From the NCBI GenBank assembly GCA_003576845.1, contig QEVJ01000045.1, positions 1-45,904 on the forward strand: a stretch of DNA of 45,904 nt. The letters run 5' to 3'. Made by a program: the position numbers and the translations under genes. Shown here piece after piece: positions 9,512 to 45,904 of the stretch (position 1 is its first letter; each line of letters starts with the position of its first letter). Source of the DNA: Planctomycetota bacterium (GTDB lineage Bacteria > Planctomycetota > Planctomycetia > Pirellulales > PLA5). The notes under the pieces are model-generated. The model saw nothing but the letters and a program-made list of their open reading frames with translations. It searched no databases and was not told the DNA's origin.

Positions 9512-9888
9512 ATCATCCTGCGGCGCTCACATAATTGGCAATCCCGACCGCTTCTACCAAGCTTGCCGGATTTGCCATACACGCGAATTATAGCCATCTT
9601 CCGAAACGAGTCAACATCGGTCTATTTTTCCTAAACCGTTTCGCGTGAATGCTTTACGAAAACTTCGCAAACGGCGTGAAACGCCGCTTCGCGGGAGGAC
9701 CCTGCCTTGAGCCGAACCTGGATGGCCCTCGCGATCGACCATCTAGCCTGCCGAGCTAGCCCGGTATTCGCCGCGGCCCGGAAGCCTGCATAGTAACGGT
9801 TACGGCCAAATCGGCATTAAGGTTTGCCACCCGCTGGGCGGCACGACGCGGTTTGCCGCCAATAATTCCCACACACCGCGCTTTTTGT

Positions 9889-9917
9889 TTGACCGGTTTT
9901 GATAACACAACTAAAAT
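9889..9917 (+). promoter_or_regulatory. Sigma70-type promoter for the giant surface-protein gene
   Basis: The -35 element TTGACC (9889-9894), a 17-base spacer and the -10 element TAAAAT (9912-9917) are close to consensus. Transcription would start near 9925 and leave a leader of about 310 bases before the ATG at 10234. No other match of this quality was noticed in the intergenic region. Confidence 0.55.
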
Positions 9918-10233
9918 GATCGCTACCGGCTGGTGGGGCCGCATCTATCTCCTGGCAAACGCTTTGCGCATTTTCGCGGTCCCGCGTGCGCTGGCGCGAG
10001 ACCGGCAATGGGCCGGTTTTCCGATCAGGACGGTCGCGCCGCCCATTGGACACGCCTGAATCGCTATCCCGTCGCCGCCGACCGACGGAAGCGCCCTTCT
10101 CCTAGCTCGGACCGATTGCCTGACCTGCGGCGCGGCCGTCGCGCGTCGTCATATTTTTGTCGCCATTTTTTGGACCCGTCGCGGAGCGTTGCACTCGCGC
10201 CGGGACCGAGTTTTTCGCAGGATTTCCGCCCCT

Positions 10234-16200: not shown

Positions 16201-19200
16201 GTGAGCGGCTTCCCGCAGTCGACCACGCCGGCGACGGGTTTGCTGACCGGCACGACCAACATGCTCGAAACGAGCCGCGTCGTCGTCGGCGGAATCGAGG
16301 CGGTGCTCAATCCGCAGACCGGCACGTGGGGCCTTTCGGGCGGAATGACGACGACGATTCTCCCCGCCGGCTCCGAATGGTCGTATCTCGACGACGGCAG
16401 CGACCAGGATGGAGAGGAAGACGCGGGAAGCGGCGTGCCGCTCCGCGATCCGATGGATCCGACCTGGTTCGGCAGCCCGCTCTACGACGATTCCGCGTGG
16501 GCGTCCGGCCTCGCGCAGCTCGGCTACGGCGAAGGCGACGAGGCGACGACGATCAACTGCGGGCCGAGCGCGCCGCAGTGCAACGCCGGCAATCTGACGA
16601 CGAGTTATTTCCGCCACACGCTCAACGTTGCCGACCCGTCGCAGTATACGGGCCTGACGCTCCGGCTCAAACGCGACGACGGCGCGGCCGTCTACTTGAA
16701 TGGCGTCGAAGTCGCCCGCGATCTGCTGGCGGCCGACGCGGAGTTCGACACGCCGGCGTCGGGAACGGTCGGTGGGGCGGACGAGAACACGTTCTTCGAG
16801 TTTCCCGTCAATCCAGGGCTGCTGGTCGCGGGCGACAATCTGATTGCCGTCGAAGTGCACCAACAGGGTCCGACCAGTTCCGACATCAGCTTCGACCTCG
16901 AACTCGTCGCCACCGTGCCGGAAAGCACCGTCGGCGTTCCCCTCAAGCCGGGCATCAATCGCGTGCTCGTCCAAGCATTCAACGCCGATGACGCAGAAGT
17001 CGACCACCGCACCATCGACGTCTGGTACGAAGACGGTTCCGTGCAAAACGTTTCGGGCACGATCAACGCGAACACGACCTGGACCGCGGCCGGTGGCCCC
17101 TATCGGCTGACGGGCAACGTCACGGTCGCCGCCGCCGCGACGCTCACGATCGAACCCGGCACGACGATCTACGCCGACCCCGGTTTCGGCATTACGGTGG
17201 GCGGCCGTCTCGTCGCCGAGGGCATGGACGGCATGCACATTCGCATGCGCCCCAATCCCGGCAGCACGTCGGCCTGGGGTGGCATCCGCTTCACCAACAC
17301 GACGCAAGACAACCGCCTCGCCTACGTCGACATGGAACACGCCGATTCGCTCGGCGAGTCGATTCGGGCCACCAACAGCACGATTTCGCTCGACCATATC
17401 ACGTGGTCCGGGACGAACAGCACCGCGTTGGAGCTGGCCAACTCCTCGTTCCGCGTGACGAATAGCGTGTTTCCCACGATGACCGGCACGGCCAACGACG
17501 CTGCGGTTAACGGCAACGGCATCGCCGCCGGCGGCGTGGCGATTCTCCAGGGCAACACGTTCGTCGCGCTCACGGGCTACAACGACGCGATCAAGTTCAC
17601 CGGCGGACAGCGGCCGGGGCCGATCCTACAAGTGCTGGACAACGAGTTCCTCGGCGGGCCGGACGACGCGATCGACCTCTTCGGCGCCGATGCCCACGTC
17701 GAAGGCAACACGTTCCGCGGGTTCCACGACACGACCGCCGATGCTTCCAGCAACGCAATTTCGGCCGGCGCCAACGGTGGCGTCGCTTCGGAGGCGACGA
17801 TTGCCCGAAACTTCTTCCACGACAACGATCATGCCGTTCTGGTCAAGGACGGATCGTTCGCCACGATTCAGAACAACACGATCGTGGGCAGCACCGTCGC
17901 CGCCGTCAATTTCGACGAGCCGAGCCCCGTAAACCCCGGCTTGGGCGCGCTGGTCGAAGGCACGATTTTCTCGGGTAATGCCGCCGATTTCGAGAATGTA
18001 GGTTCGGTTCAGCTCGCGATCAACCAATCGCTCGTGAGCGCGGCGTACTTGAACCGCGGCGTAGGGAATCTCAATTCGGCGACGAATGCGGCCCGCATCG
18101 CCGATCCCGCCAACGATGATTTTACGCTCGCACCTGGCTCGGCGGCCAAGGGCACGGGTCCCGCAGGACTCGACATGGGCGGAGATGTCGCGCCCTGGGC
18201 ACAAATCGCCGGCGAACCGATCGGCACCACGTCGAGCACCACGGCGACGCTGTCGGTCTACGGCCCGGGCATTACCCACTATCGCTTCAGCCTCGACGGC
18301 GGCGCATTCGGCGCGGAAACGCCCGTCGCGACACCGATCAACCTCAGCAGCCTCGCCAACGGCACGCACAGCGTCCGCGTCATCGGCAAGAACTCGGCCG
18401 GCGTTTATCAGGTGATTCCCGACGCCACGGTCTCGCGTACCTGGACCGTCAACACATCGCTGCCGAGCATTCTCATCACGGAAGTGCTGGCCTCGAACGT
18501 CAGCGCGTTCAATCACGAAGGAACGTTCCCGGATGCGATCGAACTGCGCAATGTGGGCCCATCGACGGTCGATCTTGCCGGCATGATGCTCTCCGATGAC
18601 CCGGCCGAGCCGTTCAAGTTCGTGTTCCCGCCCAATACGCTGCTCGCCTCTGGCGCGCGGCTCGTCGTGTTTGCCAACGACCCGGACCTGACGAGCGGTT
18701 TGCACACGGGCTTCAATCTCTCCGCCGACGGCGAAACGCTCTCGCTTTACCACACGTTCGCCAATGGCGGCGGCGTGGCGGATTCCGTGACGTTCGGCAT
18801 TCAGTTGCCGAATCTGTCGGTCGGCCGCGACGCGGACGGTAATTGGCGGCTCAATGCGCCCACGCTCGGCGCAGCGAACGTGGCCGTCACGACCGGCGAT
18901 CCCGCGCTCCTGAAGATCAACGAATGGGTGGCCGCGCAAGACTTCCTGCTCAACGACGACTTTATCGAGCTGTACAACGCCGATACCTTGCCCGTCGATC
19001 TCGGCGGGTTGCATCTGACTGACGATCCGGTCGCTCGGCCCGGCAAGCATGCGATCACGCCGCTGTCGTTCGTCGCTCCCGGCGGGTGGACGCTGTTCCG
19101 CGCCGACGACAACGCGCAGGCCGGCGCGAATCACACGAACTTCAATCTCGACCGCGACGGCGGCATGATCGGCCTGTTCGCCGCCGATTTGTCGTTGATC

Positions 19201-22200
19201 GACCAGGTGCTCTACATCCCGCAAAAAGACGACGTTTCGCAAGGCCGCAACGGCGACGGCAATCCGCTCTTCGCGTTCTACTCGCCGCCGAACCTGGGCC
19301 AGTCCAATCCGTCGGCCGGCGGACAGCAGGTCGCCGTCGTTTCCACTTACACCGATTCTTGGAAATACGAACAATCGGGCACGGACCTTGGCACGGCCTG
19401 GCGGGCGACGGGTTACAACGATACCGCCTGGCCGAGCGGCGGGGGCTTGCTCTATTTCGAAAACTCCGATTTGCCCGAGCCGAAAACGACGCAACTTACC
19501 CTTACGGGCGACAATTCGACATACTACTTCCGCCGCCACTTCAACCTCGCGGCGAATCCGGCGGATATCGACGAATTGCGCATCACCACCGTGCTCGACG
19601 ACGGCGCCGTGATCTACCTGAACGGCTCGGAAATCCTGCGGATTCGCATGAACGCGGGCGACCCGGCGTACGGCGACTTCGCCAACGGCACGATCGGCAA
19701 TGCCGACTACGAAGGCCCGTTCGTCATTCCGCGGAGCGTCTTCGCGCCGCTACTCGTAGCCGGCGACAACGTACTAGCCGTCGAAGTGCATCAAGGCGAC
19801 GCTGGCAGCAGCGACGTCGTGTTCGGGATGCGGCTCGAAACAGTCATCACGGCCGAACCACCGACGAGTTCCATCGGCGACCTGCTCGATCATCTGCGGA
19901 TTACGGAAGTCAACTACAACCCGACCGCCGGCCTGCAAACGGAGTTCATCGAACTCGTGAACACGGGCCCGGCCCCGTTGCCGCTTTCGGGCGTTCGTCT
20001 CTCGAACGCGGTGAGCTTCACGTTCGGCGACGTCGTGCTCGCTCCGGGAGCGCGGACGCTCGTGGTCGAAGACCTGGCGGCGTTCACGGCGCACTACGGC
20101 GCCGGCTTGCCCGTCGCCGGCGATTACGACGGCAGCCTGAGCAACGGCGACGAGAACATCGAACTCTTGCTGCCCGAACCCTACGCCGCCGCGATCCAGG
20201 ATTTCACCTATAGCGAAGTCTGGTATCCGTCGACCGACGGCGACGGCGCCACGCTGGTCATCAACGACCCGGCGGGCTTGCCCGGCAATTGGGATGTCGC
20301 GTCGAGCTGGCATGCCAGCTTCGCCAGCGGCGGCACGCCCGGCACGGCCGAGCAGATCCTCTCGCCGGTCGTAACGCTCGGCCCGCTCACGACGCCCGAC
20401 ATGTCGCCGCCGCTTTCGGGCACAATCAACACGGTGGTCGATTCGATCACTGTGACGATCGACGGCACGCGCACGTTCCCGGCGTTCATTAACGGACTCG
20501 GGGCCTGGTCGCTGTTCGATGACGCGATCCAGCCGCCGCTTTCGACCGGTGATCACACGATGTTCGCGACGGCGGTGAACTCGCAGGGTTCGATGAGTTC
20601 GACGCCCGTGCTGCTCCGCATCGGTTCGATTACGCCCACCGTAACCGTCAATACGCTCGTCACGAACGACGCGACACCGCCGCTCTCGGGCACGGTTAGC
20701 GATCCCGCGGCGGTGATCCAAGTCACTGTGAGCGGCAACACCTATCCGGCCACGAACAACGGCAACGGCACCTGGACGCTGGCGAACAACGTCATTTCGC
20801 CGGCGCTGGCCCAAGGCACGTACAACGTCGCCGTCACGGCGAACGTCGGCGGCAACATCGGCACGGACGCGACGACCAACGAATTGACCATCGACACGAC
20901 CGCGCCGACGGTGACGATCAATGCGCGGACGACCAACGACACGACGCCGCAGCTTACCGGCACGGTCAGCGATAACAGTGCCGTCGGCAGTCTCGTCGTG
21001 CGCGTCACGGTGAACGGCAACACGTACACGGCCACCAACAACGGCAACGGCACGTGGACGCTCGCGGACAATACGATTTCTCCGGCGCTCGCGCAGGGGA
21101 CGTACAGCGTCACCGTCACGGCGACGGACCTGGCCGGCAACGTCGGCACGGACGCGACGAGCAACGAACTGGTAATCGACACGCTCCCGCCGGCCGTCGC
21201 CATCTTGCCGCGAACCACAAACGATACGACGCCGCAGTTGACGGGCACATACTCCGACAATAGCTCGCAAGCCGGCATCGTGATTCGCGTCACGGTGAGC
21301 GGCAACACCTATACGGCCACCAACAACGGCAATGGCACGTGGACGCTCGCCGACAACACGATCGCGCCGGCCCTTGCTCAGGGGACGTACAGCGTGGCGG
21401 TTACTGCGACCGATCCCGCCGGCAACGTGGGCACGGACATCACAAGCAATGAACTGGTCATCGACACGACCGCGCCCTCCGTGACCGTCAACGCCCGCAC
21501 GACGAACGACACGACGCCGCAACTTACCGGTACGCTGAGCGACAACAACGGCACGGCGGGAGTGACGATCCTGGTCAACGTCAACGGCAGCAACTACCCG
21601 GTGACGAACAACGGCAACGGAACCTGGACGCTTGCCGACAACACGATCGTTACGCCGCTGGCCCAGGGCACGTATAACGTGACGGTCACCGCGACCGATC
21701 CCGCGGGAAACGTAGGAACCGACGCCACGAATAACGAACTAACCATCGACACCGCATCGCCAACGGTCGCGATCAACGCGCGAACGACCAACGACACCAC
21801 GCCGCAGCTTACCGGCACGGTCGCCGATAACAGCGCGGTCGCGACAGTCGTGGTTCGCGTCACGGTAAACGGGAACACCTACACGGCCACCAACAACGGC
21901 AACGGAACCTGGACGCTTCCCGACAACACGATCTCGCCGCCGCTCGCGCAAGGCACGTACAGCGTGACGATCACGGGCACGGACGTCGCGGGGAACGTCG
22001 GCACGGACGGCACGGCGAATGAACTCGTCATCGACACGACCGCGCCCACGATCACCGTCAATTCGCTGTCGACGAGCGACACGACGCCGCCGCTTTCCGG
22101 AACGATCAACGACAACGCGGCGACGATTCAAGTCACCGTGAACGGCAATACCTATCCGGCGACGAACAACGGCAACGGCACGTGGTCGCTGGCCAACAAC

Positions 22201-23283
22201 GTGATCTCGCCGCCGCTCGCCGTGGGCGTGTACAACGTCTCGGCGACGGCGACCGACGCGGCGGGAAACGTCGGTTCGGACGCCACGAACAACGAACTGA
22301 CGATTCAGAGCACGGGCGCGACCGCCGTGTCGTCGCTCCGCGTCACCGAGATCATGTACAACGCCGCCGCCCCCAGCGCGGCCGAAATCGCCGCGGGTTT
22401 CGCGACGGCCGGCGAGTTCGACTTCATCGAGCTGCTCAATTTGCACGCCACGCTGCCGATCGACTTGACCGGCGTTCGCTTTACCGTCGGAGTTACGTTC
22501 GACTTCACCGGCAGCGCGGTCACGTCGCTTGCCGCTGGCCAGCGGGTCGTGGTCGCGAAGAACCCGGCGGCGTTTGCGGTCCGCTATCGCAGCGGGGAGG
22601 CCCAAGTCGTCGGTCCGTACACCGGCAACCTCAACGACGACGGCGAATCGATTACGCTCGTCGATGCCGCCAGCGCGACGGTCCAGAACTTCACCTACGA
22701 CGACACGGGCGCCGGATGGCACCCGACGACCGACGGCGGCGGCAAGTCGCTCGTCATCCTCAACCCGAGCGGCGCGCTGGCCAACTGGAGCAGCGGCGCC
22801 GGTTATCGGCCCAGTCACGAGACGCACGGTTCGCCGGGCCGGGCGGACTACATGCACGGCGATTTGAACCTCGACAACGTCGTGGGCGTCGCCGACATCG
22901 GCCTGCTCAATGCACGCTTCGGCGCGGCGACGAACGGCGGACCGGCGGCGGGCGACTTCAATCGCGATGGCATTGTGAACCGCGCCGACGCGAGCATGTT
23001 GGCGGCACGGCTCGGCCGCAGCTTCACGCCGCCGCCCGGAAACCCGCCGCCGTCCCCGGAGGCGCCCAGTGCCGTGCTCGCGGCAGCCAGTCGCACGGCA
23101 CGCGACGCGGCCCTCGTCGACGAAACGGGCGCGCGGACCGTCTCGCGGCAGAATGCGATCCCCGTCCGCGCGATTCGGCGAGCGGCAACGGCGTCGGCGA
23201 TCGACGCCGCGATTTCCGCAACCACTAAAGACGGCGAGGCACTTACGACGTTGAGAGCGACACGCTCAATACGCCGCGCGTAA
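10234..23283 (+). CDS. Giant multidomain surface/secreted protein (LEPR-XLL, CotH-like, lamin-tail, Ig-like repeats, dockerin)
   Basis: About 4349 residues starting MSRSIRRALSQ; the frame is open further upstream, but this ATG places FEPLEQRQLLA, a planctomycete LEPR-XLL-type N-terminal motif, at 33-43. Rough order: five modules with a VYLNG-type motif and an AVEVHQ/SSD ending (149-254, 470-575, 749-856, 2123-2226, 3093-3200), some followed by cadherin-like segments; an SbsA-like Ig and an FnIII-like domain (940-1140); six lamin-tail domains (1141-1280, 1288-1430, 2746-2860, 2891-3010, 3219-3380, 4034-4205); a CotH kinase-like domain (1608-1986, with LRYRGASS and LLPHDLDTILG); a beta-helix (2269-2633); seven Ig-like repeats (3379-4026); and a dockerin-like calcium pair (4208-4260, GDLNLDNVVG and GDFNRDGIVN). 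It is probably exported and cell-surface bound. The dockerin suggests a cohesin partner not seen here. A role in adhesion or in building an outer layer is inference. Confidence 0.9.
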   Translation: MSRSIRRALSQIGHFSPSTRAKARPRQSARCRFEPLEQRQLLAVTANPDIYSTPQNTTLAAGEALAVPQRSTWSRFEGITRTGPTAAYPDANQLPTDWNDVGYNAANPSFGSWAAPAVAPFTAPLNSVDGLTGTQTLLNNNYTSGGNASLVTALFRTNFTAAAGANSGSGRVLCDDGCGVYVNGVEVFRSNLPAGTLAAGAEALNGNTNETQFLTFTFSGIPLAADNSNVFAVELHQSNPGSSDIGFDAELYVGDGSPGLLANDSLGSQSGALGVFYWDGVANQNTVTTTSGPAVDSISGQPAGSVTIGANGSFSFTPNAGYSGTAQFRYVIRDNTGPSNALVAIDVTGSDIPPTAVDDAYSVAEDGQLAVAVPSGGTVLVPRRSAWSYLDQIQNGTQQNPAVAAESYPTDAEGDPWYADNFNTATSTASIGAWQTGNGIFAGPLSGLAIGTGETLLDGIDDAANGTDNAVTTYLFRRTFNLSGAAGVNYLGVNLLSDDGGRLYINGTEVLRHLLPAGAIGTTTFATAAGDEANYLRFLVNVAGLLREGSNTIAYEVHQSAPDSSDAGFDLELTTASLLANDFDADGDPIASLSLVAGQGPTNGSLSINPTTGAFTYTPHANFSGTDRFQYAISAGGQSSAPATVTIDVAPSADNPTVVDETYSVDQSAVLAANLASFGANLGVGQSLVPLGSSWFYSDNGSNQTAINPTWKNLGFNPAGASGWSAAAAPAQFGFGEADQATTLATGATTYYFQRTFNVADASAIARLTLHAIRDDGIAVYLNGAEIVRDNLLPSAAFNQIADAQPDPENTLFSYLVDLASLPGGNPLVTGTNTLAVEVHQRPDAANDLSFDLALAAANGTFGVLANDRDSDGTALTATHNLVSGPAHAQSFTFNANGTFTYDPVNSYGGPDAFTYTVSDGNGGTAVGTVTINVVAPSFSVTSTTPSSGAMLTSPPSQLVVNFSTAVQSSSVAASDLTINGISATSVTINDADTVTFTLPGGLSAGMQEVSIPAGAVTSTGSATNSEFTGSFTLIAPPATNNVSPTNVTPSSATLRAAITDTGFQNPNLKLYWGNNDAGTSAAAWDNVIDLGTRDIGTYSAPISGLSSNTTYFYRALATNAAGATWASPTASFNTTTGVSVLPRINELLAQNSNSITDEDGSHEDWIEIHNPGTVARDLTGWYLTDDSLNLAKWQFPATSIPPDGYLIVWASNKNRATPGLPLHTNFRLSNGGEYLALVQPDGTTVVSSFDPFAALSADQSYGLTVDELSPTTFFPATPGAANLSSALVINEIMYHPTSENVLEEWIEVKNIGSQTVNTAGWRFTAGVDFTLPSVNVPAGGFLIVAADVAAFQAANPGFSGQVVGGWTGQLSNSGENVDLSDNFGQVVDTVDYADDGEWALRRSLPDEAVPSTSGWEWVAFHDGGALYDHDNDPGTALEFRSATLELVNPLLSNNRGQNWSSSATATGTPGAENSVASANIAPLILDVSQSPQIPRSTDVVHITADLRDELTAGVTASVFYRDASTQTPGAWIEVPMFDDGLHGDGAAGDREFGAMLPALAGGTIVEYYVRARDSGNRARTWPAPTDDFETQGANALYQVDDTVSLVDQQYFRLIMTEAERDRFENQSRQSDAQANVTFVAAFGGEVDTRHNAGLRYRGASSRTRNPPTMRLNLTADDPWNGQSQINLNSQYTHSQVAGSAIFRTAGQEAAEATAVQLRVNGANPANAGSPQWGSYVAMQVINSDFADSQFPDDPNGNAYRGLNHQAPLDYLGPNPGPYVGPYDKLTNASEADYNDIIQLTCELSRPNAPATTTCDSLDPTEPASFSIDRVAQVLNIDQWVEHIAIHTLLANNETTLANGFGDDYAMYRGVIDPRFVLLPHDLDTILGQGDQPGGTNDSIFRFANTPNIPNVARLMLHPEVLPRYYTALTRLIETTFSPAVLNPLLDNTLVNFVPQARIDAMKSFAAARNAYVLSQIPTSVSVNTTLPVVSGFPQSTTPATGLLTGTTNMLETSRVVVGGIEAVLNPQTGTWGLSGGMTTTILPAGSEWSYLDDGSDQDGEEDAGSGVPLRDPMDPTWFGSPLYDDSAWASGLAQLGYGEGDEATTINCGPSAPQCNAGNLTTSYFRHTLNVADPSQYTGLTLRLKRDDGAAVYLNGVEVARDLLAADAEFDTPASGTVGGADENTFFEFPVNPGLLVAGDNLIAVEVHQQGPTSSDISFDLELVATVPESTVGVPLKPGINRVLVQAFNADDAEVDHRTIDVWYEDGSVQNVSGTINANTTWTAAGGPYRLTGNVTVAAAATLTIEPGTTIYADPGFGITVGGRLVAEGMDGMHIRMRPNPGSTSAWGGIRFTNTTQDNRLAYVDMEHADSLGESIRATNSTISLDHITWSGTNSTALELANSSFRVTNSVFPTMTGTANDAAVNGNGIAAGGVAILQGNTFVALTGYNDAIKFTGGQRPGPILQVLDNEFLGGPDDAIDLFGADAHVEGNTFRGFHDTTADASSNAISAGANGGVASEATIARNFFHDNDHAVLVKDGSFATIQNNTIVGSTVAAVNFDEPSPVNPGLGALVEGTIFSGNAADFENVGSVQLAINQSLVSAAYLNRGVGNLNSATNAARIADPANDDFTLAPGSAAKGTGPAGLDMGGDVAPWAQIAGEPIGTTSSTTATLSVYGPGITHYRFSLDGGAFGAETPVATPINLSSLANGTHSVRVIGKNSAGVYQVIPDATVSRTWTVNTSLPSILITEVLASNVSAFNHEGTFPDAIELRNVGPSTVDLAGMMLSDDPAEPFKFVFPPNTLLASGARLVVFANDPDLTSGLHTGFNLSADGETLSLYHTFANGGGVADSVTFGIQLPNLSVGRDADGNWRLNAPTLGAANVAVTTGDPALLKINEWVAAQDFLLNDDFIELYNADTLPVDLGGLHLTDDPVARPGKHAITPLSFVAPGGWTLFRADDNAQAGANHTNFNLDRDGGMIGLFAADLSLIDQVLYIPQKDDVSQGRNGDGNPLFAFYSPPNLGQSNPSAGGQQVAVVSTYTDSWKYEQSGTDLGTAWRATGYNDTAWPSGGGLLYFENSDLPEPKTTQLTLTGDNSTYYFRRHFNLAANPADIDELRITTVLDDGAVIYLNGSEILRIRMNAGDPAYGDFANGTIGNADYEGPFVIPRSVFAPLLVAGDNVLAVEVHQGDAGSSDVVFGMRLETVITAEPPTSSIGDLLDHLRITEVNYNPTAGLQTEFIELVNTGPAPLPLSGVRLSNAVSFTFGDVVLAPGARTLVVEDLAAFTAHYGAGLPVAGDYDGSLSNGDENIELLLPEPYAAAIQDFTYSEVWYPSTDGDGATLVINDPAGLPGNWDVASSWHASFASGGTPGTAEQILSPVVTLGPLTTPDMSPPLSGTINTVVDSITVTIDGTRTFPAFINGLGAWSLFDDAIQPPLSTGDHTMFATAVNSQGSMSSTPVLLRIGSITPTVTVNTLVTNDATPPLSGTVSDPAAVIQVTVSGNTYPATNNGNGTWTLANNVISPALAQGTYNVAVTANVGGNIGTDATTNELTIDTTAPTVTINARTTNDTTPQLTGTVSDNSAVGSLVVRVTVNGNTYTATNNGNGTWTLADNTISPALAQGTYSVTVTATDLAGNVGTDATSNELVIDTLPPAVAILPRTTNDTTPQLTGTYSDNSSQAGIVIRVTVSGNTYTATNNGNGTWTLADNTIAPALAQGTYSVAVTATDPAGNVGTDITSNELVIDTTAPSVTVNARTTNDTTPQLTGTLSDNNGTAGVTILVNVNGSNYPVTNNGNGTWTLADNTIVTPLAQGTYNVTVTATDPAGNVGTDATNNELTIDTASPTVAINARTTNDTTPQLTGTVADNSAVATVVVRVTVNGNTYTATNNGNGTWTLPDNTISPPLAQGTYSVTITGTDVAGNVGTDGTANELVIDTTAPTITVNSLSTSDTTPPLSGTINDNAATIQVTVNGNTYPATNNGNGTWSLANNVISPPLAVGVYNVSATATDAAGNVGSDATNNELTIQSTGATAVSSLRVTEIMYNAAAPSAAEIAAGFATAGEFDFIELLNLHATLPIDLTGVRFTVGVTFDFTGSAVTSLAAGQRVVVAKNPAAFAVRYRSGEAQVVGPYTGNLNDDGESITLVDAASATVQNFTYDDTGAGWHPTTDGGGKSLVILNPSGALANWSSGAGYRPSHETHGSPGRADYMHGDLNLDNVVGVADIGLLNARFGAATNGGPAAGDFNRDGIVNRADASMLAARLGRSFTPPPGNPPPSPEAPSAVLAAASRTARDAALVDETGARTVSRQNAIPVRAIRRAATASAIDAAISATTKDGEALTTLRATRSIRRA
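20641..22310 (+). repeat. Six tandem ~280-base repeats encoding Ig-like domains
   Basis: Repeats start near 20641, 20909, 21199, 21481, 21769 and 22051. Each encodes a domain of about 89-96 residues sharing TNDTTPQLTGT, ATNNGNGTWTLADN, ALAQGTY and AGNVGTD. A diverged seventh copy precedes them (20371-20640). Long stretches are nearly identical at the DNA level, so copy number may change by recombination and assembly here can be unreliable. Confidence 0.9.
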
Positions 23284-24471: not shown

Positions 24472-24493
24472 CGCGTATCCTAAATCCTCGAGT

Positions 24494-24545
24494 CTCGCGT
24501 CCCGAGCCCCGCGCCCCGAGCCCCGCGCCCCTAGCCCCGCGCCCC
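24494..24545. repeat. 7-bp tandem repeat array, unit CCCGNGC
   Basis: Units alternate CCCGAGC and CCCGCGC, seven bases apart, from about 24501 to 24542, with degenerate units before them. The variant unit CCCTAGC (24529-24535) provides the glgC stop codon on the minus strand. The array occupies the glgC-alcohol dehydrogenase gap. Confidence 0.85.
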
Positions 24546-25823: not shown

Positions 25824-26159
25824 GACTGCGACGGGGAACGCTCGGTGATGGTGGCGAATGGAGCCGGCCTGCTCGGCAATGCCACAGAGGCCGCGCCGAC
25901 GGGTCCGCCATTGTACGGTCTTGGCGGTCGGGTGGGGAGCGTGGCTGAAAGGGACTGGGGACTGGGGACTGGGGACTGGGGACTGGGGGCGGGAGAATGC
26001 AGACGCGAAGCCGTGGCGTACGGTCACGTGGAACGCTCGGGAGGGCGGCGGCTGGCGGCAGGGCGCGAATGCCGGATGGGGCGCGCGTTCCCCCGCCGTG
26101 TATTCACGGCGGGATCAATGAGGCGGCGGGATCAATGATGCGGCGGGCGAAATCGCGCG
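25824..26159. other. Intergenic region upstream of glgC
   Basis: This 336-base gap holds a 7-bp repeat array (25953-25987) and a perfect 9-bp-stem hairpin (CCCGCCGTG, TATT loop, CACGGCGGG; 26092-26113). Next to the hairpin a short unit, GGCGGGATCAATGA, is repeated. The hairpin has no T run after it in the direction of the cytochrome-like gene, so it is not a clear terminator. No gene is seen. Confidence 0.6.
25953..25987. repeat. 7-bp tandem repeat array, five exact GACTGGG units
   Basis: Five perfect copies of GACTGGG run head to tail, followed by a degenerate G-rich stretch. The array sits 130 bases upstream of the glgC start. The same unit type is known among the short tandemly repeated (STRR) sequences of heterocystous cyanobacteria. 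Confidence 0.95.
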
Positions 26160-34074: not shown

Positions 34075-34156
34075 AATGCAAAATGAAGAATGAAGAATGA
34101 AAAATGAGCCTTGAGTAGTCCAGGCTCGATTGCGGTCATTTTGCCATTTGCATTTC
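34075..34156. repeat. 7-bp tandem repeat array with facing arms, unit AATGAAG
   Basis: Five units (AATGCAA, AATGAAG twice, AATGAAA, AATGAGC) at 34075-34109 face three roughly complementary units (TCATTTT, GCCATTT, GCATTTC) at 34136-34156. The transcript could fold as a hairpin 14 bases before the NUDIX gene start. Confidence 0.9.
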
Positions 34157-38851: not shown

Positions 38852-40804
38852 TTATTGCCGCGAGCCGTCTTTGAGCCGCGAGGCCATGTCGGCGTATTTT
38901 CGCGAGTTCGTTGCGTCGCCGAGCTCGCGGTGCATGTTGGCGAGATTGGCGTACGGGATTTCGAGCTGCGCCGTCTCCGCGAGGCCATCCTTGACGGCCT
39001 GTTCGACGAGGTGGACGCCCTCGCCCGTCAACTCCAGGGCCTTGCGCTGTTCGCCCTGTTGCCAATACGACACGCCCATGCTGATGAACGCTTCGCCGTG
39101 CTTCGAAGTATCGGCGACGCACGAGACGGGCAGCGGTTTTTCGAGGAGCGGAATTGCCTTGGCGTAAAACTTCACCGCGGTCGCGTGGTCGTTGCGGAAG
39201 ACGGCGTTCTCCGCTCCTAGGCGGTAATAGATTTGGCCGAGGAGATAGTCGTGCTCCGTGCGGCGGGGCGCGACCTTCGCGAGGTGCTCGATTGCCGATT
39301 CGCCGAGCACGGTCACAATGCCGGCCTGGCCGCGGGCGTGGGCTTCTTGCATTCCTTCGTACAAGCCCTGGGCCAACTCCCACTCGAGACGGGCCTTGGC
39401 GAGCGGGTCGCCGGCGGCGGCGAGCTCGCGATTGCCGAGCGACTGAAAATCCTGCGTCACGCGGCTGCCGTCGACCGTGCCTTGCGATGCGGCGATGGCC
39501 ACGAGCGCCCGGCGGGCAACCTCGAATTTGAGCCGCGACTCGGCCCCTTCGTTCTTCACCAGATCGGTCGCTGCTTCGCCGGCTTTGATCAGCCACTTGG
39601 GCACGACGGTTTCCTTCTTGTTCCACTGGCCGAGGGCGATCGCGTGCGCCGCGCCGAGATGCGCGTCGACGAGCACGCGCTTGGCTTCGCGGCGAACCGA
39701 CGCTTTCGAGTCGGTCGCGGCGCCGTCGGCGACTTCGATCGCTTGCATGTGGTGCTTGAGCGCGTCTTTGACGTTGCGATTCGCGCCGTGCGTGGCCAAC
39801 TCGCCCTGTAAGCAAAGCGCGCGGGCTTTGAGGTGCGGCTCCGGCTGATGGGTCGCAATCGTGTCGCGCACCACCCGCTCCGCCTCGTCGAATCGGCCGA
39901 GCTTCATCAGCACGTCGGCTTGAGCGAGCCGGTATTGGGCATTGCCGGGCTGGGCGTGGATGGCTTGCTCGATCGCGGCGAGCGCCTCGGTCGGTTGGCC
40001 GTGGGTTGCGAGGATTCGCGAGCGCAGATAGTGCCCGCGATGGTGCTTGGCGTCGCGGGCGAGCGCTTCCTCCAGGTCGGCGAGCGCCGCCTGCGGCCGC
40101 GCGGCCATGCGACTCTCGGCCCGCGCGACGAACTGCTCGGCGTTGATACCTTCGAGCAGCAGTTGATCGACGGCCGCGGTCGGGCTCTTGGCGTCAAAGC
40201 TGAACACGACGCCCCGCTCGGGAAACGCCTGACCCATCGGTTTGCCCGCGTCGTCGTAGATCACGACCGGTTCGAGCCCATCGAACTTGAGTTGCTTGGC
40301 GACGACGTCGGGCGGAAACGGTTGCGCGAACTTAACGACGATGTAGGAAACGATGTTGTTTTCGGCGTAAACTTCGACGCGCTCAAAGCCGGCGATCTCG
40401 AACGTGAACTCGACGACGCCATCGCCGCCGCGGGTTTGCTTCGGCTCGCCCCAGGCGGTCTTCAGTTGATCAACGGTCGACTTTCCGGGCGTGATGCCCT
40501 TGAGTCCGGCCGCGTCGATGCCCGTCTTGGGCTGCTGCGCGGCGGTCGAGTCTGCGGCAGTCTGACCGGCGGCGTCGTGCGGACTTGCAGTACGATTTGT
40601 GGGGCTGGCCGTCGGATTGCCGCGCAGCGGCGTTCCGCGGCGTTCGGCGAGGGGGCGATTGCGCGTCGGCGATTCTTGGGCCGGCGCCGCCGGGACAAGC
40701 CATGTACCGCAGAGCGCGAGACCCGCCGTCGCCGCGCGGAAGCGGGCGGAAGTGAAGACACACCAGGGCCAGTCCTGCCTCGCTCGCCGTGCGATCCGTC
40801 GCAT
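38852..40804 (-). CDS. Exported tetratricopeptide-repeat protein
   Basis: 650 residues from the ATG at 40804 (MRRIARRARQDW). A basic start and the segment TAGLALCGTWLVPAAPA form a signal peptide. About 50 Pro- and Thr-rich residues follow, then a globular part (about 75-175, with GITPGKSTVDQLKTAWGEPKQT, which resembles the beta-lactamase-inhibitor/SmpA-type fold). From about 190 to the end there are repeated helical pairs of TPR type (ALADLEEALARDAKHH, ALAAIEQAIHAQPGNAQYRLAQADVLMKLGR and others). TPR arrays hold partner proteins, here probably in the periplasm. The partner is not known. The gene ends at the shared terminator. Confidence 0.85.
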   Translation of the reverse strand: MRRIARRARQDWPWCVFTSARFRAATAGLALCGTWLVPAAPAQESPTRNRPLAERRGTPLRGNPTASPTNRTASPHDAAGQTAADSTAAQQPKTGIDAAGLKGITPGKSTVDQLKTAWGEPKQTRGGDGVVEFTFEIAGFERVEVYAENNIVSYIVVKFAQPFPPDVVAKQLKFDGLEPVVIYDDAGKPMGQAFPERGVVFSFDAKSPTAAVDQLLLEGINAEQFVARAESRMAARPQAALADLEEALARDAKHHRGHYLRSRILATHGQPTEALAAIEQAIHAQPGNAQYRLAQADVLMKLGRFDEAERVVRDTIATHQPEPHLKARALCLQGELATHGANRNVKDALKHHMQAIEVADGAATDSKASVRREAKRVLVDAHLGAAHAIALGQWNKKETVVPKWLIKAGEAATDLVKNEGAESRLKFEVARRALVAIAASQGTVDGSRVTQDFQSLGNRELAAAGDPLAKARLEWELAQGLYEGMQEAHARGQAGIVTVLGESAIEHLAKVAPRRTEHDYLLGQIYYRLGAENAVFRNDHATAVKFYAKAIPLLEKPLPVSCVADTSKHGEAFISMGVSYWQQGEQRKALELTGEGVHLVEQAVKDGLAETAQLEIPYANLANMHRELGDATNSRKYADMASRLKDGSRQ

Positions 40805-41163
40805 CGTAAAACCTCCACATACGCCGAACAGGTGAGAGGGCCGCGAAGTATAGCCGGGCGTCATGGCCAGTCTAGAGCGATTTGCCGCGATCCGCGTATT
40901 TCGTATTTGGGACCACGCCAACTTTCGCGCGCGAAGCGAATCTCGTCCAATGTCAGGATTGGAACCCCAGGAATTCGCCAGTCGCGTGCGTTGCGGAGCC
41001 AGCCATAGTCCCGCAGGCTCTCAGTCCGCGCCACGTGCCAGCATTGCTTGCGAAGGGATTCCGTCTCGTGTTGCAGCGCCGAAGGTCTACCGAAACTTCG
41101 CATACCTCCTGGATTCGACTGAAAACGCACAAAACAAGCCCACGGCACTGTCCAATGCCCCCG
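40805..41163. other. Intergenic region between the TPR and ThuA-like genes
   Basis: A 359-base gap. An open frame on the minus strand (40861-41148, 95 codons) reads RDYGWLRNARDWRIPGVPIL in its middle. This looks less like random sequence than most, but I cannot match it to a family and it has no good ribosome binding site. It may be the remnant of a gene. I find no repeats or terminator. Confidence 0.4.
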
Positions 41164-41946
41164 TCACTTCGCCCGGTGCAGACTTTCGTCCACGACGTGC
41201 TCGCCCGCGATTGGACTGAGCGGTTCGGGGATGTTCCGGCCCTCGCCGAAGTACCGGCACCCGGTCGGCGCGGCCCAGGCGACGCCGTTGGCGATGACGC
41301 GACGGACGTTGGCGTCGTGGTAGATGGGAAACGTCTCGTGCCCGGGCCGGAAGTAGAAGATCTTGCCCTTGCCGCGGCGAAACGTGCATCCGCTGCGAAA
41401 GACCTCGCCTCCCTCGAACCACGAGATGAACACGATCTCGTCCGGCGGCGGAATGTCGAAGAACTCGCCGTACATTTCGGTATGTTCGAGCTCAAAACAT
41501 TCGTCCTCGAGTCCGGCGACGATGGGATGCGACGGGTCGACGATCCACAGCCGCTCGCGTTCGCCCGCTTCCCGCCACCGGAGCATGCAGCTCGTGCCCA
41601 TCAGGCGGCGAAAGATCTTCGAATTGTGGGCCGAGTGCAACACGACCAGCCCCATTCCCGCCCAGACCCGCCGTTGCACGCGCTCAACGACGGCGTCCTC
41701 GACCCGCTCGTGCGCGGCATGGCCCCACCACGTAAGGACGTCGGTCGCGGCGAGCACTTCTTCGGTCAGGCCGTGGTCCGGCTCGTCGAGCGTGGCGGTT
41801 CGCACCGAGACGCCGCTGCCCAGGTGCTGGCGAATCGCGTCCGCCACGGCCGAGTGAATGCCCTGGGGGTAAATCTTGGCGACCGCGTCGCTGGTCCGCT
41901 CGTGGACGTATTCGTTCCAAACGGTCACCCGTAACGGCGTCGACAT
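41164..41946 (-). CDS. ThuA-like protein (trehalose-utilisation family)
   Basis: 260 residues. AAGGAG followed by CAA precedes two ATGs; the second, at 41946 ([13 protein letters not shown]), has the better spacing. The fold is that of class I glutamine amidotransferases: [14 protein letters not shown] near 70, [19 protein letters not shown] near 100, HPIVAGL near 140, [12 protein letters not shown] near 155, and [22 protein letters not shown] near 200. ThuA proteins take part in use of trehalose or related disaccharides; the exact reaction is not settled. There is no signal peptide. It is divergent from the pseudouridine synthase gene, with a 157-base gap. Confidence 0.9.
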
Positions 41947-42103
41947 CATTTGCTCCTTACCCACGACCGGCCTGGGCATGTCGGCTCAAACCGGCCGCGT
42001 GCCCCTGGGGGATGCTTCGACGGGGTAGTATGATGAATCCTTCGCCCTATTCGCAAGCTCTCGCCGCGCGTGCCGGCTGATCTTTCGCCATCGAGCCGAC
42101 GCC

Positions 42104-43561
42104 ATGAAATCAACCCCCAAGAAACGCAAACCGCTCCGCCACGGCGCCACGAGCTTTACCGGCGACCGCCGCCGAAGCCGCGACCGCTCGCGAGGCGCGA
42201 GCCGCAACGCTTCCGAAGCATCGCCCGGTTCCGGTGACTCGCCGCAGTCCGATTCCGCAAAGGCGCGTACCGAACAACCGCGGTCGGACGACGCCCGCGA
42301 CGACCAGCGTCTGCAAAAAGTCCTCGCCGCCGCCGGCATCGGAAGCCGCCGCGAGTGCGAAGAGCTGATTCTGTCGGGCCGCGTCGAAGTCGACGGCGAG
42401 CCGGTTACGCAGCTCGGCGTCCGCGTCGACTCGCGCAGTCAGAAAATCACCGTGGACGGCGAGCCGATCAAGTTCCAACGCCGCACCTATTTCGCGGTCA
42501 ACAAGCCGACCGGCGTCCTTTCGACCAACCGCGATCCCGCCGGGCGGATTCGCGTTGTCGACCTCATCGGCGGCGAGCAGCGGCTATTTACGGTCGGCCG
42601 TCTCGACCAGCACAGCGACGGGCTAATCATCGTCACCAACGACGGCGAATTGACCCAACGCCTCACGCACCCGCGCTACGGCGTCCCGAAGACCTATTCC
42701 GTCCAGGTCGCCGGGGCGGCCACGGGCGAAGTCGTCGCCAAGCTCCTCGCCGGCGTGCACCTTGAAGAGGGCGTCGCCAAAGCCGCTCGGGCGTTCATCC
42801 GCAAACGCCACAAGAACCATACCGTGCTCGAAATGGTTCTCACCGAAGGCCGCAACCGCGAAATCCGCCGGATGCTCGCCCAGATCGGCCACAAGGTGCA
42901 GCGTCTCACGCGGATCGCGGTCGGTCCGGTCCGCCTCGGCAAGCTCAAGCCGGGCCAGTACCGCCCGCTCGAATCGTGGGAGATCAAAGCGCTCAAAGGA
43001 TTGGCGTTTCACCCCGGCGGCGCGGACGCGAAGTTCGCGCCCCGCGGCAAGCAATTCGGTCGCGACACGTTCAAGCCGCGCCGCGACAAACCGCCTCACG
43101 CCGCGCCGCCTTCGCCAGCGCCGCCTTCGCCCGAGCAACCGGCATCCGCCGAAGGGCCGCGTCCGCAGCGACCCGCGAAGGTTCGGCCCATCAAGCCGGG
43201 GCGGCGAGAGTTCGGCGCACGCCCTGCCGGCGAAAAGCGCTTCGGCGAAAAACGATTCGGGGAGAAGAAGTTTGGGGAGAAAAAGTTTGGCAAGCGAAGA
43301 TTCCCCGACAAGCCGGTGGACGAAAAGCGATTCGGCAAGCCTCCCGGCAAGCGGCCGCCGTGGTCGAAGGGGGCAAATCAAGGCGTCGCGCAACCCGCAA
43401 CGGGCGAACCGCATCCGCTGCCGTTCCTCAAACAGGGCCTGATCGTCGAAGACGACGCGCTTCCCGCAACTCGCCCGCCCGCAACCCGTCCGCCGCAGCC
43501 CTTCGAGCGCAAGCACAAGCGCAAAAAACCGCTACGGCGACTCAACGTAAGGCGGAAGTGA
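42104..43561 (+). CDS. rluB: Pseudouridine synthase of the RsuA/RluB/RluE/RluF family
   Basis: 485 residues. The first 66 are disordered and basic. Next comes an S4 RNA-binding domain (about 68-115, QRLQKVLAAAGIGSRRECEE) and the catalytic domain with VNKPTGVLST, the active-site Asp168 in GRLDQHSDGLIIVTNDG, and RNREIRRMLAQIGHKVQRL. The enzyme converts uridine to pseudouridine in ribosomal RNA; RluB (23S) is the nearest guess, but RsuA-type (16S) is possible. Residues from about 300 to the end form a long tail rich in Lys, Arg and Pro, with repeated KRFGE/KKFGE units near 375-410. Bacterial relatives of about 250-300 residues lack such a tail. Its stop codon is directly followed by a 7-bp repeat array. 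Confidence 0.9.
   Translation: MKSTPKKRKPLRHGATSFTGDRRRSRDRSRGASRNASEASPGSGDSPQSDSAKARTEQPRSDDARDDQRLQKVLAAAGIGSRRECEELILSGRVEVDGEPVTQLGVRVDSRSQKITVDGEPIKFQRRTYFAVNKPTGVLSTNRDPAGRIRVVDLIGGEQRLFTVGRLDQHSDGLIIVTNDGELTQRLTHPRYGVPKTYSVQVAGAATGEVVAKLLAGVHLEEGVAKAARAFIRKRHKNHTVLEMVLTEGRNREIRRMLAQIGHKVQRLTRIAVGPVRLGKLKPGQYRPLESWEIKALKGLAFHPGGADAKFAPRGKQFGRDTFKPRRDKPPHAAPPSPAPPSPEQPASAEGPRPQRPAKVRPIKPGRREFGARPAGEKRFGEKRFGEKKFGEKKFGKRRFPDKPVDEKRFGKPPGKRPPWSKGANQGVAQPATGEPHPLPFLKQGLIVEDDALPATRPPATRPPQPFERKHKRKKPLRRLNVRRK
43225..43340 (+). repeat. Coding repeat of KRFGE-type units in the RluB tail
   Basis: A 15-base unit encoding GEKRF or GEKKF is repeated about five times and continues degenerately (KRRFPDKP, DEKRFGK). 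The third-position changes between copies suggest either an old duplication or selection for the peptide pattern. The tail would bind RNA by charge. Confidence 0.75.
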
Positions 43562-43689
43562 AGGTTCATGTTTCAAGTATCAAGGTTCAAATAAGTCCTA
43601 AGGTTCAAGGCCCAAGGCTCGAACCCTCGCTCCTTGAACCTTCCGCCTGACGCCTTATTCGAACCTTGAAACTTAAACCTTGAAACTTC
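43561..43689. repeat. 7-bp tandem repeat array filling the rluB-pyrK gap, unit AAGGTTC
   Basis: Nine units (43561-43623; AAGGTTC, ATGTTTC, AAGTATC, AAGGTTC and so on) are followed by eight units (43634-43689; TTGAACC, AACCTTG, AAACTTA and so on) that are partly the complement of the first group. The array begins at the last base of the rluB stop and ends 11 bases before the pyrK ATG, leaving no ordinary intergenic sequence. Confidence 0.92.
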
Positions 43690-43700
43690 TCATCCCCACC

Positions 43701-44726
43701 ATGTCTTGCCCTGGACCGACCGCGCCAGCCGCCCACGCGCTCTCCGCGTCCTACTACGCCGATCGCGCCACGTGGTGCTCGGCCGAGATCACTGGCCACG
43801 CGCAAATCGCCCGCGACACGTACCGGCTTCGCTTTCGCGCGCCCCAGATCGCCGAACGAATTGCGCCGGGCCAATTCGTGATGCTTCGGCTCGCGGGATT
43901 CGACGATCCGCTCCTCGGCCGGGCTCTCGCGCTGTTCGACATCGCCACGAACGCCGCCGGCGAACCGACCGACGTCGAGGTCGTGTACATGGTCGTCGGC
44001 AAGATGACTCGCCGGCTCACCGCCTTTCGCCCGGGCCAGAAACTCGAAGCCTGGGGCCCGCTCGGCAACGGCTTCCCGGAGGTCGAGACGGACCATCTCA
44101 TCATGGTGGCCGGCGGCGTGGGCATTACGCCGTTTCTGGCGGTGGCGAAGCAGTATCGAGAGGTTGGAGGTTCGAGGTTAGAGGTTAGGAATACCAGTCC
44201 GGGCGTGGAGAGCGAATCCCCAACTTCTAACCTCCAAGCGCCAACCTCCAGCTCCCGCTTGACCCTCTGTTACGGCGCCCGCAGTGCCGACTACTTCGCC
44301 GCCCTCGATGAATTCGCCAAGGTGGGCGTCGACCTCCAACTCTCGACCGACGACGGCTCGCGCGGACACCACGGCCGCGTCACCGAAGTCCTCGCCAAGG
44401 TACTAAGCGAAGCCGGCGCCGAGGGCGTTCCCTCGAATCCCGAATCCCGAATCCCGACCCTAGCCCGCATCAGCGAACCTCTAACCTCCAACCTCCAACC
44501 TCTCGTCTTCTGCTGCGGTCCGGAGCCCATGATGGAAGCCGCCGCGAAAGTCTGCGCAGACGCGGGCGTGCCGTGTTTCGTGTCGCTCGAAACGCCGATG
44601 GCCTGCGGCGTCGGCATCTGCTTCACGTGCGTCGCGAAAGTCCGCCAGAGCGACGGCGAGTGGGACTACAAACGCACCTGCGTCGAAGGACCCGTGTTCG
44701 ACGCGCGGCGGATCGTGTGGCACTAA
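43701..44726 (+). CDS. pyrK: Dihydroorotate dehydrogenase electron-transfer subunit (PyrK-like), with repeat-derived insertions
   Basis: 341 residues from the ATG at 43701 (MSCPGPTAP); the TTG further upstream lies in a repeat array. An FAD-binding domain comes first (RLRFRAPQIAERIAPGQFVMLR, LLGRALALFDI), then the NAD-binding domain with VAGGVGITPFLAVAK, LCYGARSADYFAALDEF and FCCGPEPMM. A [2Fe-2S] site follows in MACGVGICFTCVAK plus a Cys in YKRTCVEGP. PyrK passes electrons from dihydroorotate oxidation (PyrD) to NAD+. No pyrD is nearby. Two segments, about 154-184 and 244-268, are encoded by 7-bp repeat arrays and are absent from the family pattern as I know it; they keep the frame and fall between conserved motifs, probably in surface loops. 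Other members of the ferredoxin-reductase family are possible but less likely. Confidence 0.88.
   Translation: MSCPGPTAPAAHALSASYYADRATWCSAEITGHAQIARDTYRLRFRAPQIAERIAPGQFVMLRLAGFDDPLLGRALALFDIATNAAGEPTDVEVVYMVVGKMTRRLTAFRPGQKLEAWGPLGNGFPEVETDHLIMVAGGVGITPFLAVAKQYREVGGSRLEVRNTSPGVESESPTSNLQAPTSSSRLTLCYGARSADYFAALDEFAKVGVDLQLSTDDGSRGHHGRVTEVLAKVLSEAGAEGVPSNPESRIPTLARISEPLTSNLQPLVFCCGPEPMMEAAAKVCADAGVPCFVSLETPMACGVGICFTCVAKVRQSDGEWDYKRTCVEGPVFDARRIVWH
44161..44254. repeat. 7-bp tandem repeat array with facing arms inside pyrK, unit AGGTTAG
   Basis: Four units (AGGTTGG, AGGTTCG, AGGTTAG twice; 44161-44188) face four complementary-type units (CTAACCT, CCAAGCG, CCAACCT, CCAGCTC; 44227-44254). The whole lies in the coding frame and encodes about 31 residues between FLAVAKQY and LTLCYGARS. 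Confidence 0.93.
44431..44503. repeat. Second 7-bp tandem repeat array inside pyrK
   Basis: Units CCTCGAA, TCCCGAA (twice), TCCCGAC and CCTAGCC (44431-44465) are followed after ten bases by AACCTCT, AACCTCC (twice) and AACCTCT (44476-44503). It encodes about 25 residues just before LVFCCGPEPMM and keeps the frame. Confidence 0.93.
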
Positions 44727-44735
44727 CGCAGGCGG

Positions 44736-45257
44736 CTATTCCGCCGCAGCTTCTAGACCATCGGCTCCAGGCACGCGCGCGCCCAACTCGCGATCCAAGT
44801 CCAAGAGCGCCGGCGGATCGTCCTGCACCATCCGAAACTTTGCCAGCACGTCCCGCGCGGTCCGTTCTTCTTCGACCTGCTCGGTAATGAACCACTGCAA
44901 CTGCACGAGTTCCGCGAACGCCCGCTCCTTGAACGCCAGCTCGTACAACTCTTCGATTCGCCGCGTGACGGAGGTTTCCTGTTCGAGGGCCTTCTCGAAC
45001 ACGCCGACCACGGAGCCGTAATCGGTCGGCTGCGCGTCGATCTCGCGAAGGTGCACCTGGCAATTTCGCGCCAGCATGAAGTTGTAGATCTTCATGCCGT
45101 GCTTGTACTCTTCTTCGCTCTGAATCCGCAGCCACCTGGCACAACCGAGAAAGTTGTGCAGCTCGCAATACGCCGACATCGCCAGATAGGAATACGACGA
45201 CGTCAGCTCGTAGTTGATCTGATCGTTGAGCGCGTTTTGAACGACCTGGCTAAGCAT
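44736..45257 (-). CDS. ftnA: Bacterial ferritin (FtnA-like)
   Basis: An iron-storage protein of 173 residues from the ATG at 45257 (MLSQVVQNALNDQ); 24 subunits form a hollow shell that oxidises Fe2+ and stores it. Every ferroxidase residue falls at the position it has in E. coli FtnA: E17, E50, H53, E94, Q127 and E130. SSYSYLAMSAYCE and EEEYKHGMK are typical. The C-terminal 25 residues (DLDRELGARVPGADG) extend a little past the usual end. The gene converges on pyrK with only nine bases between the stops and no visible terminator. No Fur box was recognised upstream. Confidence 0.93.
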   Translation of the reverse strand: MLSQVVQNALNDQINYELTSSYSYLAMSAYCELHNFLGCARWLRIQSEEEYKHGMKIYNFMLARNCQVHLREIDAQPTDYGSVVGVFEKALEQETSVTRRIEELYELAFKERAFAELVQLQWFITEQVEEERTARDVLAKFRMVQDDPPALLDLDRELGARVPGADGLEAAAE

Positions 45258-45425
45258 GGCGAAGTTCTCCTCGGGCCGAACTCGGGTAATGTCGAAGCAG
45301 CCGTGCCGGCGAGCGTCAATCGCTTCCCGACACGCCACGCGGCATTGTACGCGCCGTTCGGCGACGCGACCACGCCAACCGCCGGGTTCCCGATGGCGAC
45401 CCGGTCGGACACGGGGTTGCCTGAC

Positions 45426-45521
45426 AGCCTGTTGAAAATGGGGACAGACCCTTTGGAAAGTGCGTTTTTAGCCGCAGATTGCGACGTGCCTGAGAGGGTC
45501 AGTCCCCTTTTTCAACAGGCT
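45426..45521. repeat. 27-base inverted repeat, 25 of 27 positions matching
   Basis: The arms at 45426-45452 and 45495-45521 are complementary except at two positions, with a 42-base centre. Each arm contains AGCCTGTTGAAAA and a GGGGAC core. It may be a small mobile element of the REP or MITE type, or a stem in a transcript. No transposase gene is nearby, and no target-site duplication was recognised. Confidence 0.8.
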
Positions 45522-45541
45522 GCTGACCGACTCGGCCCAGT

Positions 45542-45620
45542 CCCATCCATGCCCATCCGTCCCATCCGTGCCCATCCGTGGTGAGACCGAACCACGGATG
45601 ACACGGATGGGCACGGATGC
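45542..45620. repeat. Inverted array of CCCATCCGTG units
   Basis: Four units (CCCATCCATG, CCCATCCGT, CCCATCCGTG twice; 45542-45580) face the complementary ACGGATG units at 45591-45620. The period is 9-10 bases, not 7, but the facing-arm layout is the same as in the 7-bp arrays of this window. Confidence 0.8.
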
Positions 45621-45753
45621 GGGAGGCGCGGAGCGTGGCGCGGTGCGGCGGCTGCGCGCGTATGGCGGGCGAGGTTGCCGCGCTGCACTCGCCGAGCCGC
45701 GCCACCCCGCGGATTTAGCGCGGCGCCGCCGCAAATGCAAATCGTTTGCAAAC

Positions 45754-45767
45754 GTTTCACGTGAAAC
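45754..45767. promoter_or_regulatory. parS site (ParB-binding centromere)
   Basis: GTTTCACGTGAAAC is a perfect 14-base palindrome and equals the core of the bacterial parS consensus TGTTTCACGTGAAACA; only the outermost bases differ (C and G instead of T and A). ParB loads here and spreads, and ParA-ParB then separates the new origins. Such sites cluster near the origin and often beside parAB, which would lie past the right edge. Confidence 0.85.
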
Positions 45768-45904
45768 GCACAACAAGGGTGGGAAAATCTGGGCTTGACA
45801 ACGCCCCAAATTATCATGCCCAACGCGCGCGTGCCGCGATGCGGCCGACGGCGGCGAAAATGCGGACAAGTTTCGGGCAGGTGTAAAATTCTTCGTAGAC
45901 ATTC

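Follow-up and report, generated by a model that had tools for sequence, protein, structure and literature searches.

Introduction

In Xanthomonas and Nostoc, heptamers with the words GGGAATC and GGGGA(C/T)T, respectively, are found genome-wide, lie mainly in intergenic DNA, and comprise essentially one word per genome (PMC4692102). In Beggiatoaceae, heptanucleotide repeats likewise have one word, TAACTGA, which encodes stops in the forward orientation and which, when present in ORFs, lies mostly at protein ends (PMC4679880). A polymerase-footprint hypothesis for a unit of seven is cited in both works (PMC4692102; PMC4679880). Rickettsia palindromic elements are families of ~150-bp elements that encode a conserved peptide (PMC10969869).

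Here we describe 7-bp repeats inside pyrK in a bacterium whose nearest relatives are Pirellulales, phylum Planctomycetota. The window, that is, the whole 45,904-nt stretch of DNA analysed, is one entire contig (C263) of a 7.05 Mb draft genome in 289 contigs. The repeats share with the TAACTGA repeats of Beggiatoaceae a 7-bp direct-repeat unit and a mainly intergenic location, with some copies in ORFs; the TAACTGA repeats, unlike those described here, show no G-rich/C-rich convergent pairing (PMC4679880). The repeats share with Rickettsia palindromic elements the presence of palindromic DNA in frame in unrelated metabolic genes, where it is translated (PMC10969869) and where, in the present case, translation is predicted from the open frame; unlike the copies of Rickettsia elements, the present copies have only the 7-bp period and the polarity in common. 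A search of the open-licence literature returned no account of such heptamer repeats in Planctomycetes.

Results

pyrK contains heptamer clusters in two length-variable loops

The pyrK gene lies near the right end of the window, between an upstream pseudouridine synthase gene and a convergent downstream ferritin-like gene. Its product scores above the Pfam cut-offs for PF10418, PF00970, and PF00175, its top PDB matches, in sequence and in fold, are PyrK and NfnI-type homologues, and NCBIfam equivalog profiles score it below their own cut-offs (top score 149 vs. 219). The gene and its repeats comprise the following features:

43701..44726, + strand: pyrK, dihydroorotate dehydrogenase electron-transfer subunit with FAD- and NAD-binding and [2Fe-2S] domains (Pfam and PDB matches; gene call with ATG start)
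~44160..44189, + strand: loop-1 G-rich arm, GAGGTTN x4 (GAGGTTG GAGGTTC GAGGTTA GAGGTTA G; period-7 score 16)
44190..44221, + strand: spacer of the loop-1 convergent pair, ~33 nt (sequence; inverted repeat I2)
~44222..44252, + strand: loop-1 C-rich arm, degenerate AACCTCC (AACTTCT AACCTCC AAGCGCC AACCTCC; inverted repeat I2)
44434..44457, + strand: loop-2 array a, GAATCCC x3 (period-7 score 17)
44476..44502, + strand: loop-2 array b, AACCTCT AACCTCC AACCTCC AACCTC, x4 (inverted repeat I3)
44589..44714, + strand: [2Fe-2S]-binding domain, 3' of both repeat clusters (PF10418, residues 304–345 of P0001)

The initial annotation had reported two heptamer arrays inserted in frame between conserved motifs. 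The reading frame is indeed uninterrupted across both clusters (44160–44252 and 44434–44502), and conserved motifs lie on either side. Both clusters are real; they are, however, one convergent (inverted) pair, in which the C-rich arm is the reverse complement in type of the G-rich arm (inverted repeat I2, 76% over 45 nt), plus two same-strand arrays of different words. Each array has 3–4 imperfect units, and the clusters occupy approximately codons 154–184 and 245–268 of 341. The period-7 scores of the three pyrK arrays are 16, 17, and 17, and the best period-7 score over 1000 codon shuffles of pyrK is 13. Arrays scoring at least 12 number 7 in the real window vs. 1 in total across 40 Markov-1 copies of the window.

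The loop peptides encoded within pyrK include SEPLTSNLQPLVFCCGPEPMM, and the words encode stop-free 7-residue cycles (NLQPPTS, ESRIPNP, QPPAPSP, and GGWRLEV). Because a 7-bp unit runs through one set of seven codons in any frame, AACCTCC, GAATCCC, CAGCCCC, and unmutated GGAGGTT are stop-free in every frame; certain variants, for example AGAGGTT, do include a stop. Loop-2 array b (44476–44505) is complementary at 29 of 30 positions to the loop-1 G-rich arm (44157–44186). We rejected co-evolution of the two as an account of this match: arrays of this word elsewhere in the genome reach up to 28 of 30 positions, and the complementarity is therefore weak evidence for co-evolution.

In alignment with PDB PyrK, gaps fall exactly at both repeat clusters, and the insertions are absent from most Pirellulales PyrK as well, as would be anticipated from the earlier view that they are foreign to the protein. 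The loop-1 stretch comprises 58 residues here vs. a median of 42, which is also the length in almost all of ~30 Pirellulales PyrK; the loop-2 stretch comprises 62 residues here vs. a median of 42 in the same set, with a range of 36–66. The sizes first given for the insertions, about 31 and 25 residues, hold for the repeat-derived stretches but not for the net excess over relatives, which is only ~16 and ~20 residues, because native loop residues are partly replaced. In an AlphaFold model of PyrK (mean pLDDT 80.9), pLDDT is below 50 at residues 157–179 and ~51–58 around residues 241–260, values that are consistent with disordered loops. We conclude that both clusters sit in flexible, exposed, length-variable surface loops of PyrK.

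The same two loops contain a different heptamer word in a congener

We compared the locus with that of one genome of the same genus, G001, which matches public MAG OFTM264 at the pyrK locus and whose PyrK is 64–70% identical to PyrK here. In the congener, the same two loops also contain heptamers, but the word is different: loop 1 has CCAGCCC units, and loop 2 has CAGCCCC units with one CAACCTC unit among them. The loop residues differ completely (NLQPPTS-type here vs. QPPAPSP-type in the congener), which argues against a residue-specific role and runs counter to the expectation, under which the insertions would be ordinary PyrK sequence, that the same residues would be conserved in proteins lacking heptamers. 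In 197 kb of unselected contigs of the congener, no array has a comparable score, so that it would be a striking coincidence for independent arrays to have reached both of these loops. We infer that the repeat sites in pyrK are old and shared by ancestry in both species and that the word has drifted since; repeated insertion at both loops, independently in each species, is a possible alternative, one congener having been compared. Comparison of the two sequences thus points to persistence of period and sites in the pyrK loops while sequence turns over.

The pyrK arrays belong to a genome-wide class with convergent polarity

We analysed 797 kb of the source genome, with genes called by a simple home-made codon-usage script. 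Most of the contigs were picked for holding the AACCTCC repeat, a choice that inflates array density; for other words, the contrasts in period and polarity are unaffected by it. Among periods of 4–24, period 7 accounts for 106 arrays in this sample, and no period other than multiples of 7 has more than 13. Coding sequence makes up 82% of the DNA, yet 84 arrays are intergenic, 22 overlap gene ends, and only 12 of 118 were called within coding sequence, some of which in fact lie outside true genes. Coding DNA is thus strongly purged of arrays. Arrays that at first seemed intragenic in the genes for LeuRS (L129) and PurH (L176) turned out to lie just beyond the true coding frame and were discarded. 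The LeuRS gene itself has an apparent frameshifting deletion near the C-terminus (L129 ~3684–4000, − strand; G000:C192 ~183.7–184.0 kb), where VQVNG is followed by the expected tail in another frame, and a heptamer array starts at the stop codon of that tail.

The arrays have a marked polarity. Within 40 nt after stop codons, the G-rich strand is the sense strand in 38 cases vs. 4; within 40 nt before starts, the G-rich strand is the antisense strand in 31 cases vs. 5. Neighbouring array pairs in the source-genome sample, including pairs inside genes, are convergent in 38 cases and divergent in none. Many intergenic spacers consist almost wholly of degenerate heptamers that form a hairpin, the arms of which usually have the same word, and arrays adjoin genes of all kinds. 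A hairpin of this type lies directly 5' of pyrK (inverted repeat I1, with 69-nt arms that are 74% complementary and 4 nt between them; z −7.4 for the fold of 43550–43697), and further arrays lie elsewhere in the window:

43554..43695, no strand assigned: intergenic convergent heptamer hairpin with an AAGGTTC-type word, directly 5' of pyrK (inverted repeat I1)
24487..24545, no strand assigned: CCCGAGC/CCCGCGC array at a gene edge
25951..25988, no strand assigned: GGGACTG x5.4 array, intergenic
34075..34107, no strand assigned: AATGAAG-type array, intergenic

Three further repeat structures were observed in the window. An inverted repeat seen by eye at 45420–45530 has CAGCCTGTTGAAAA...GGGGACAG with its complement; a decamer array of CCCATCCGTG, also seen by eye, faces its own complement at 45540–45620; and within an ORF of more than 4,300 aa at 10339–23283, a 285-bp unit is repeated 5.6 times in tandem at 20722–22299.

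This class shares with the Xanthomonas and Nostoc repeats a dispersed, mainly intergenic 7-bp unit, convergent pairs in close proximity, and a G-rich strand that is sense just after stops and antisense just before starts (PMC4692102). Unlike that class, it comprises ~48 canonical words among 140 arrays, many without GGG runs (for example AACCTCC, AATGAAG, and ATTCACA), it is documented inside loops of core enzymes, and its host belongs to Pirellulales (Planctomycetota). The form GGGANTN, which covers GGGAATC, fits loop-2 array a when that array is read on its opposite strand (GGGATTC); neither it nor GGGGA(C/T)T fits the AACCTCC arrays or many of the other words, and of the G-quadruplex, a feature of the Xanthomonas/Nostoc type, only the G-run spacing can be read from the sequences here. 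Because most arrays fail the defining word, we class them as a variant of the Xanthomonas/Nostoc kind and not as members. A single consensus for all words was tried and rejected: NRRGRYT fits 77 of 140 arrays vs. 5% of random heptamers, which is suggestive but far from universal.

In-frame insertions occur in loops of other proteins

The coding insertions examined sit in loops. In the PSD1/DUF1553 cytochrome-type protein (L122) of the source genome, GGGGCGC repeats are inserted where the congener is shorter; the two sites, a single pair, are too diverged for a target-site duplication to be read. The MFS transporter (L137) of the source genome has a full convergent pair at residues 222–284 of 491, and its best congener match is 39%, with no close orthologue. 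In G093, a genome of another Pirellulales family, NuoM (TIGR01972, 533 vs. a cut-off of 264) has an in-frame convergent group before its last conserved segment, with GGGGATC, CCCAAAT, and CCCGAAT arrays in convergent order that account for ~45 residues (L205 9773–9906), and a FecR-like protein, which scores below the FecR Pfam cut-off, has another.

Heptamers were also observed at the starts of two genes. In L168, the N-terminus of a DUF7133/cytochrome-type protein (9645–12626, − strand), AFFILHFSFCILHSS, is encoded by CTTCATT/CATTCTG heptamers (array 12544–12583); it resembles a signal peptide, and the true start may be further in. In L180, an ORF extension at ~1430–1490, just 5' of the likely pyrD start, reads PPPAPSPQSPA, which suggests that CAGCCCC-type heptamers sit directly before the likely pyrD start codon.

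The in-frame insertions in loops of PyrK, PSD1, MFS, NuoM, and FecR-like proteins, together with the convergent arms, spacer, and stable RNA hairpin at pyrK, might be taken to indicate that a transposable hairpin, MITE-like or Rickettsia-palindromic-element-like, inserted in pyrK, and Rickettsia elements likewise insert in frame (PMC10969869). We consider an origin of this kind unlikely: the copies have no common sequence or conserved ends, words differ between elements and at times between the two arms of one element, an Rfam search of 40000–45904, which includes the pyrK region, returned no family match, and numbers of Y1-type (REP-associated) transposases do not track array abundance. Y1 transposases were accordingly rejected as an engine, inasmuch as the congener has none yet has arrays, and the array-poor genome G015 has 11.

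RNA structure and reading-frame arithmetic at pyrK

According to the hypothesis that the inserted RNA or DNA structure is itself functional, the repeats would act through translation pausing or through control of pyrK by an RNA hairpin or G-quadruplex. The RNA hairpin of loop 1 has a z score of −3.7 and the whole 381-nt region one of −3.8, and two species keep repeats in both loops. Loop 2 alone, however, folds no better than shuffled sequences, the congener, which has sense-strand C-rich arrays only, has no equivalent hairpin, and neither word nor structure is conserved. A function of the structure itself is therefore quite doubtful.

In simple-sequence contingency loci, the arrays are long and almost perfect and typically lie close to the 5' end of genes for surface structures. 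The SSRs of Haemophilus influenzae are treated as an example of such loci (PMC2651432). The pyrK arrays share with contingency loci an in-frame repeat unit that is not a multiple of three. The initial annotation raised the hypothesis of an on-off (phase-variable) switch, in which gaining or losing one or two units would move the gene out of frame, delete the [2Fe-2S] domain, and toggle pyrimidine synthesis. The arithmetic is sound: a unit of 7 is not divisible by 3, and at either end of array 1 the shifted frame runs into a stop within 3–19 codons. The switch, however, is very improbable. Unlike those of contingency loci, the pyrK arrays are short, imperfect, and mid-gene, in a housekeeping gene, and they are one instance of a class present throughout the genome. 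The source genome has one copy of pyrK; its sole cut-off-passing PyrD (372.7 vs. 269) is of class 1, the type that works with PyrK, and no class 2 PyrD in the genome is above the family cut-off, a second family member passing no NCBIfam cut-off. The authors of the Xanthomonas/Nostoc work likewise take a negative view for that repeat class, considering phase variation unlikely given how many of the repeats lie beside genes of general metabolism (PMC4692102).

An assembly artefact or misjoined repeat is scarcely credible, even though repeats tend to assemble poorly and the draft comprises 289 contigs, because the frame is open through both clusters, each cluster is shorter than 100 bp, and heptamers also occupy both sites in a second, independent genome of the genus.

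The heptamer trait is patchy within Pirellulales

The dimer GGGATTCGGGATTC is present in 18 of 196 genomes of order Pirellulales. Copies number 159 in the source genome and 28 in the congener, and two genomes from another family have 18 apiece; most genomes have none or few, and a mirrored control is nearly always zero. In stretches of G063, G093, and G101 (one family) and of G023 (another), period-7 arrays are again in excess and have many words; the excess in G023 is slight (6 arrays at period 7 and 6 at period 15). In two genomes without the word, the stretches show no excess of period-7 arrays. The uneven presence over genomes indicates that the heptamer trait is patchy within Pirellulales.

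Discussion

We conclude that the pyrK clusters are probably tolerated intragenic members of a genome-wide class of 7-bp repeats, located in loops of core enzymes and filtered to keep the frame. The second possibility offered at the outset, multi-unit insertions filtered by selection, fits all findings. The arrays, the open frame, the loop location, the genome-wide class, its polarity, and the different word in the congener are observed directly; a slippage origin, neutrality, and common descent of the two species' sites are what we infer from them.

In the proposed mechanism, arrays would arise and turn over by a process that preserves the 7-bp period and not the sequence, most likely replication slippage with point mutation and within-array homogenisation. 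Selection would eliminate arrays from coding DNA almost always, and only net lengths divisible by three would be retained, in tolerant loops. Three circumstances would allow arrays to survive in pyrK: both loops are exposed, vary in length, and accept extra Pro/Ser/Asn-rich residues; the C-rich words and the unmutated G-rich word encode stop-free cycles in every frame; and net lengths not divisible by three are lost. PyrK would remain a working electron-transfer subunit, and the pattern would be explained without switching.

Plain slippage does not explain the period of seven or the 38:0 convergence. The convergent-only pairs might stem from snap-back copying of the G-rich strand or from selection at gene ends; the convergent pairs inside genes mildly favour a mechanism over gene-end selection. 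A broader and more tentative possibility is that some bacteria have a dedicated, sequence-independent mechanism that builds convergent 7-bp-repeat hairpins, always with the G/purine-rich arm first, and places them in spacers and protein loops, the word drifting while period and orientation persist. Such a mechanism would thereby supply new in-frame peptides to core enzymes across several Pirellulales families.

Bacterial heptamer repeats have long been known, but no explanation of the number seven is settled, and this genus offers a clean handle on the question. Period and convergent polarity are conserved here, and sequence is variable by locus and, at the same codons, between sister species, a combination that separates sequence-based accounts (a binding site or a specific G-quadruplex) from accounts based on length (a polymerase footprint) or on a hairpin. 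PyrK, NuoM, MFS, and cytochrome-type proteins all contain in-frame copies, which indicates that the repeat process also feeds new peptide segments into housekeeping proteins.
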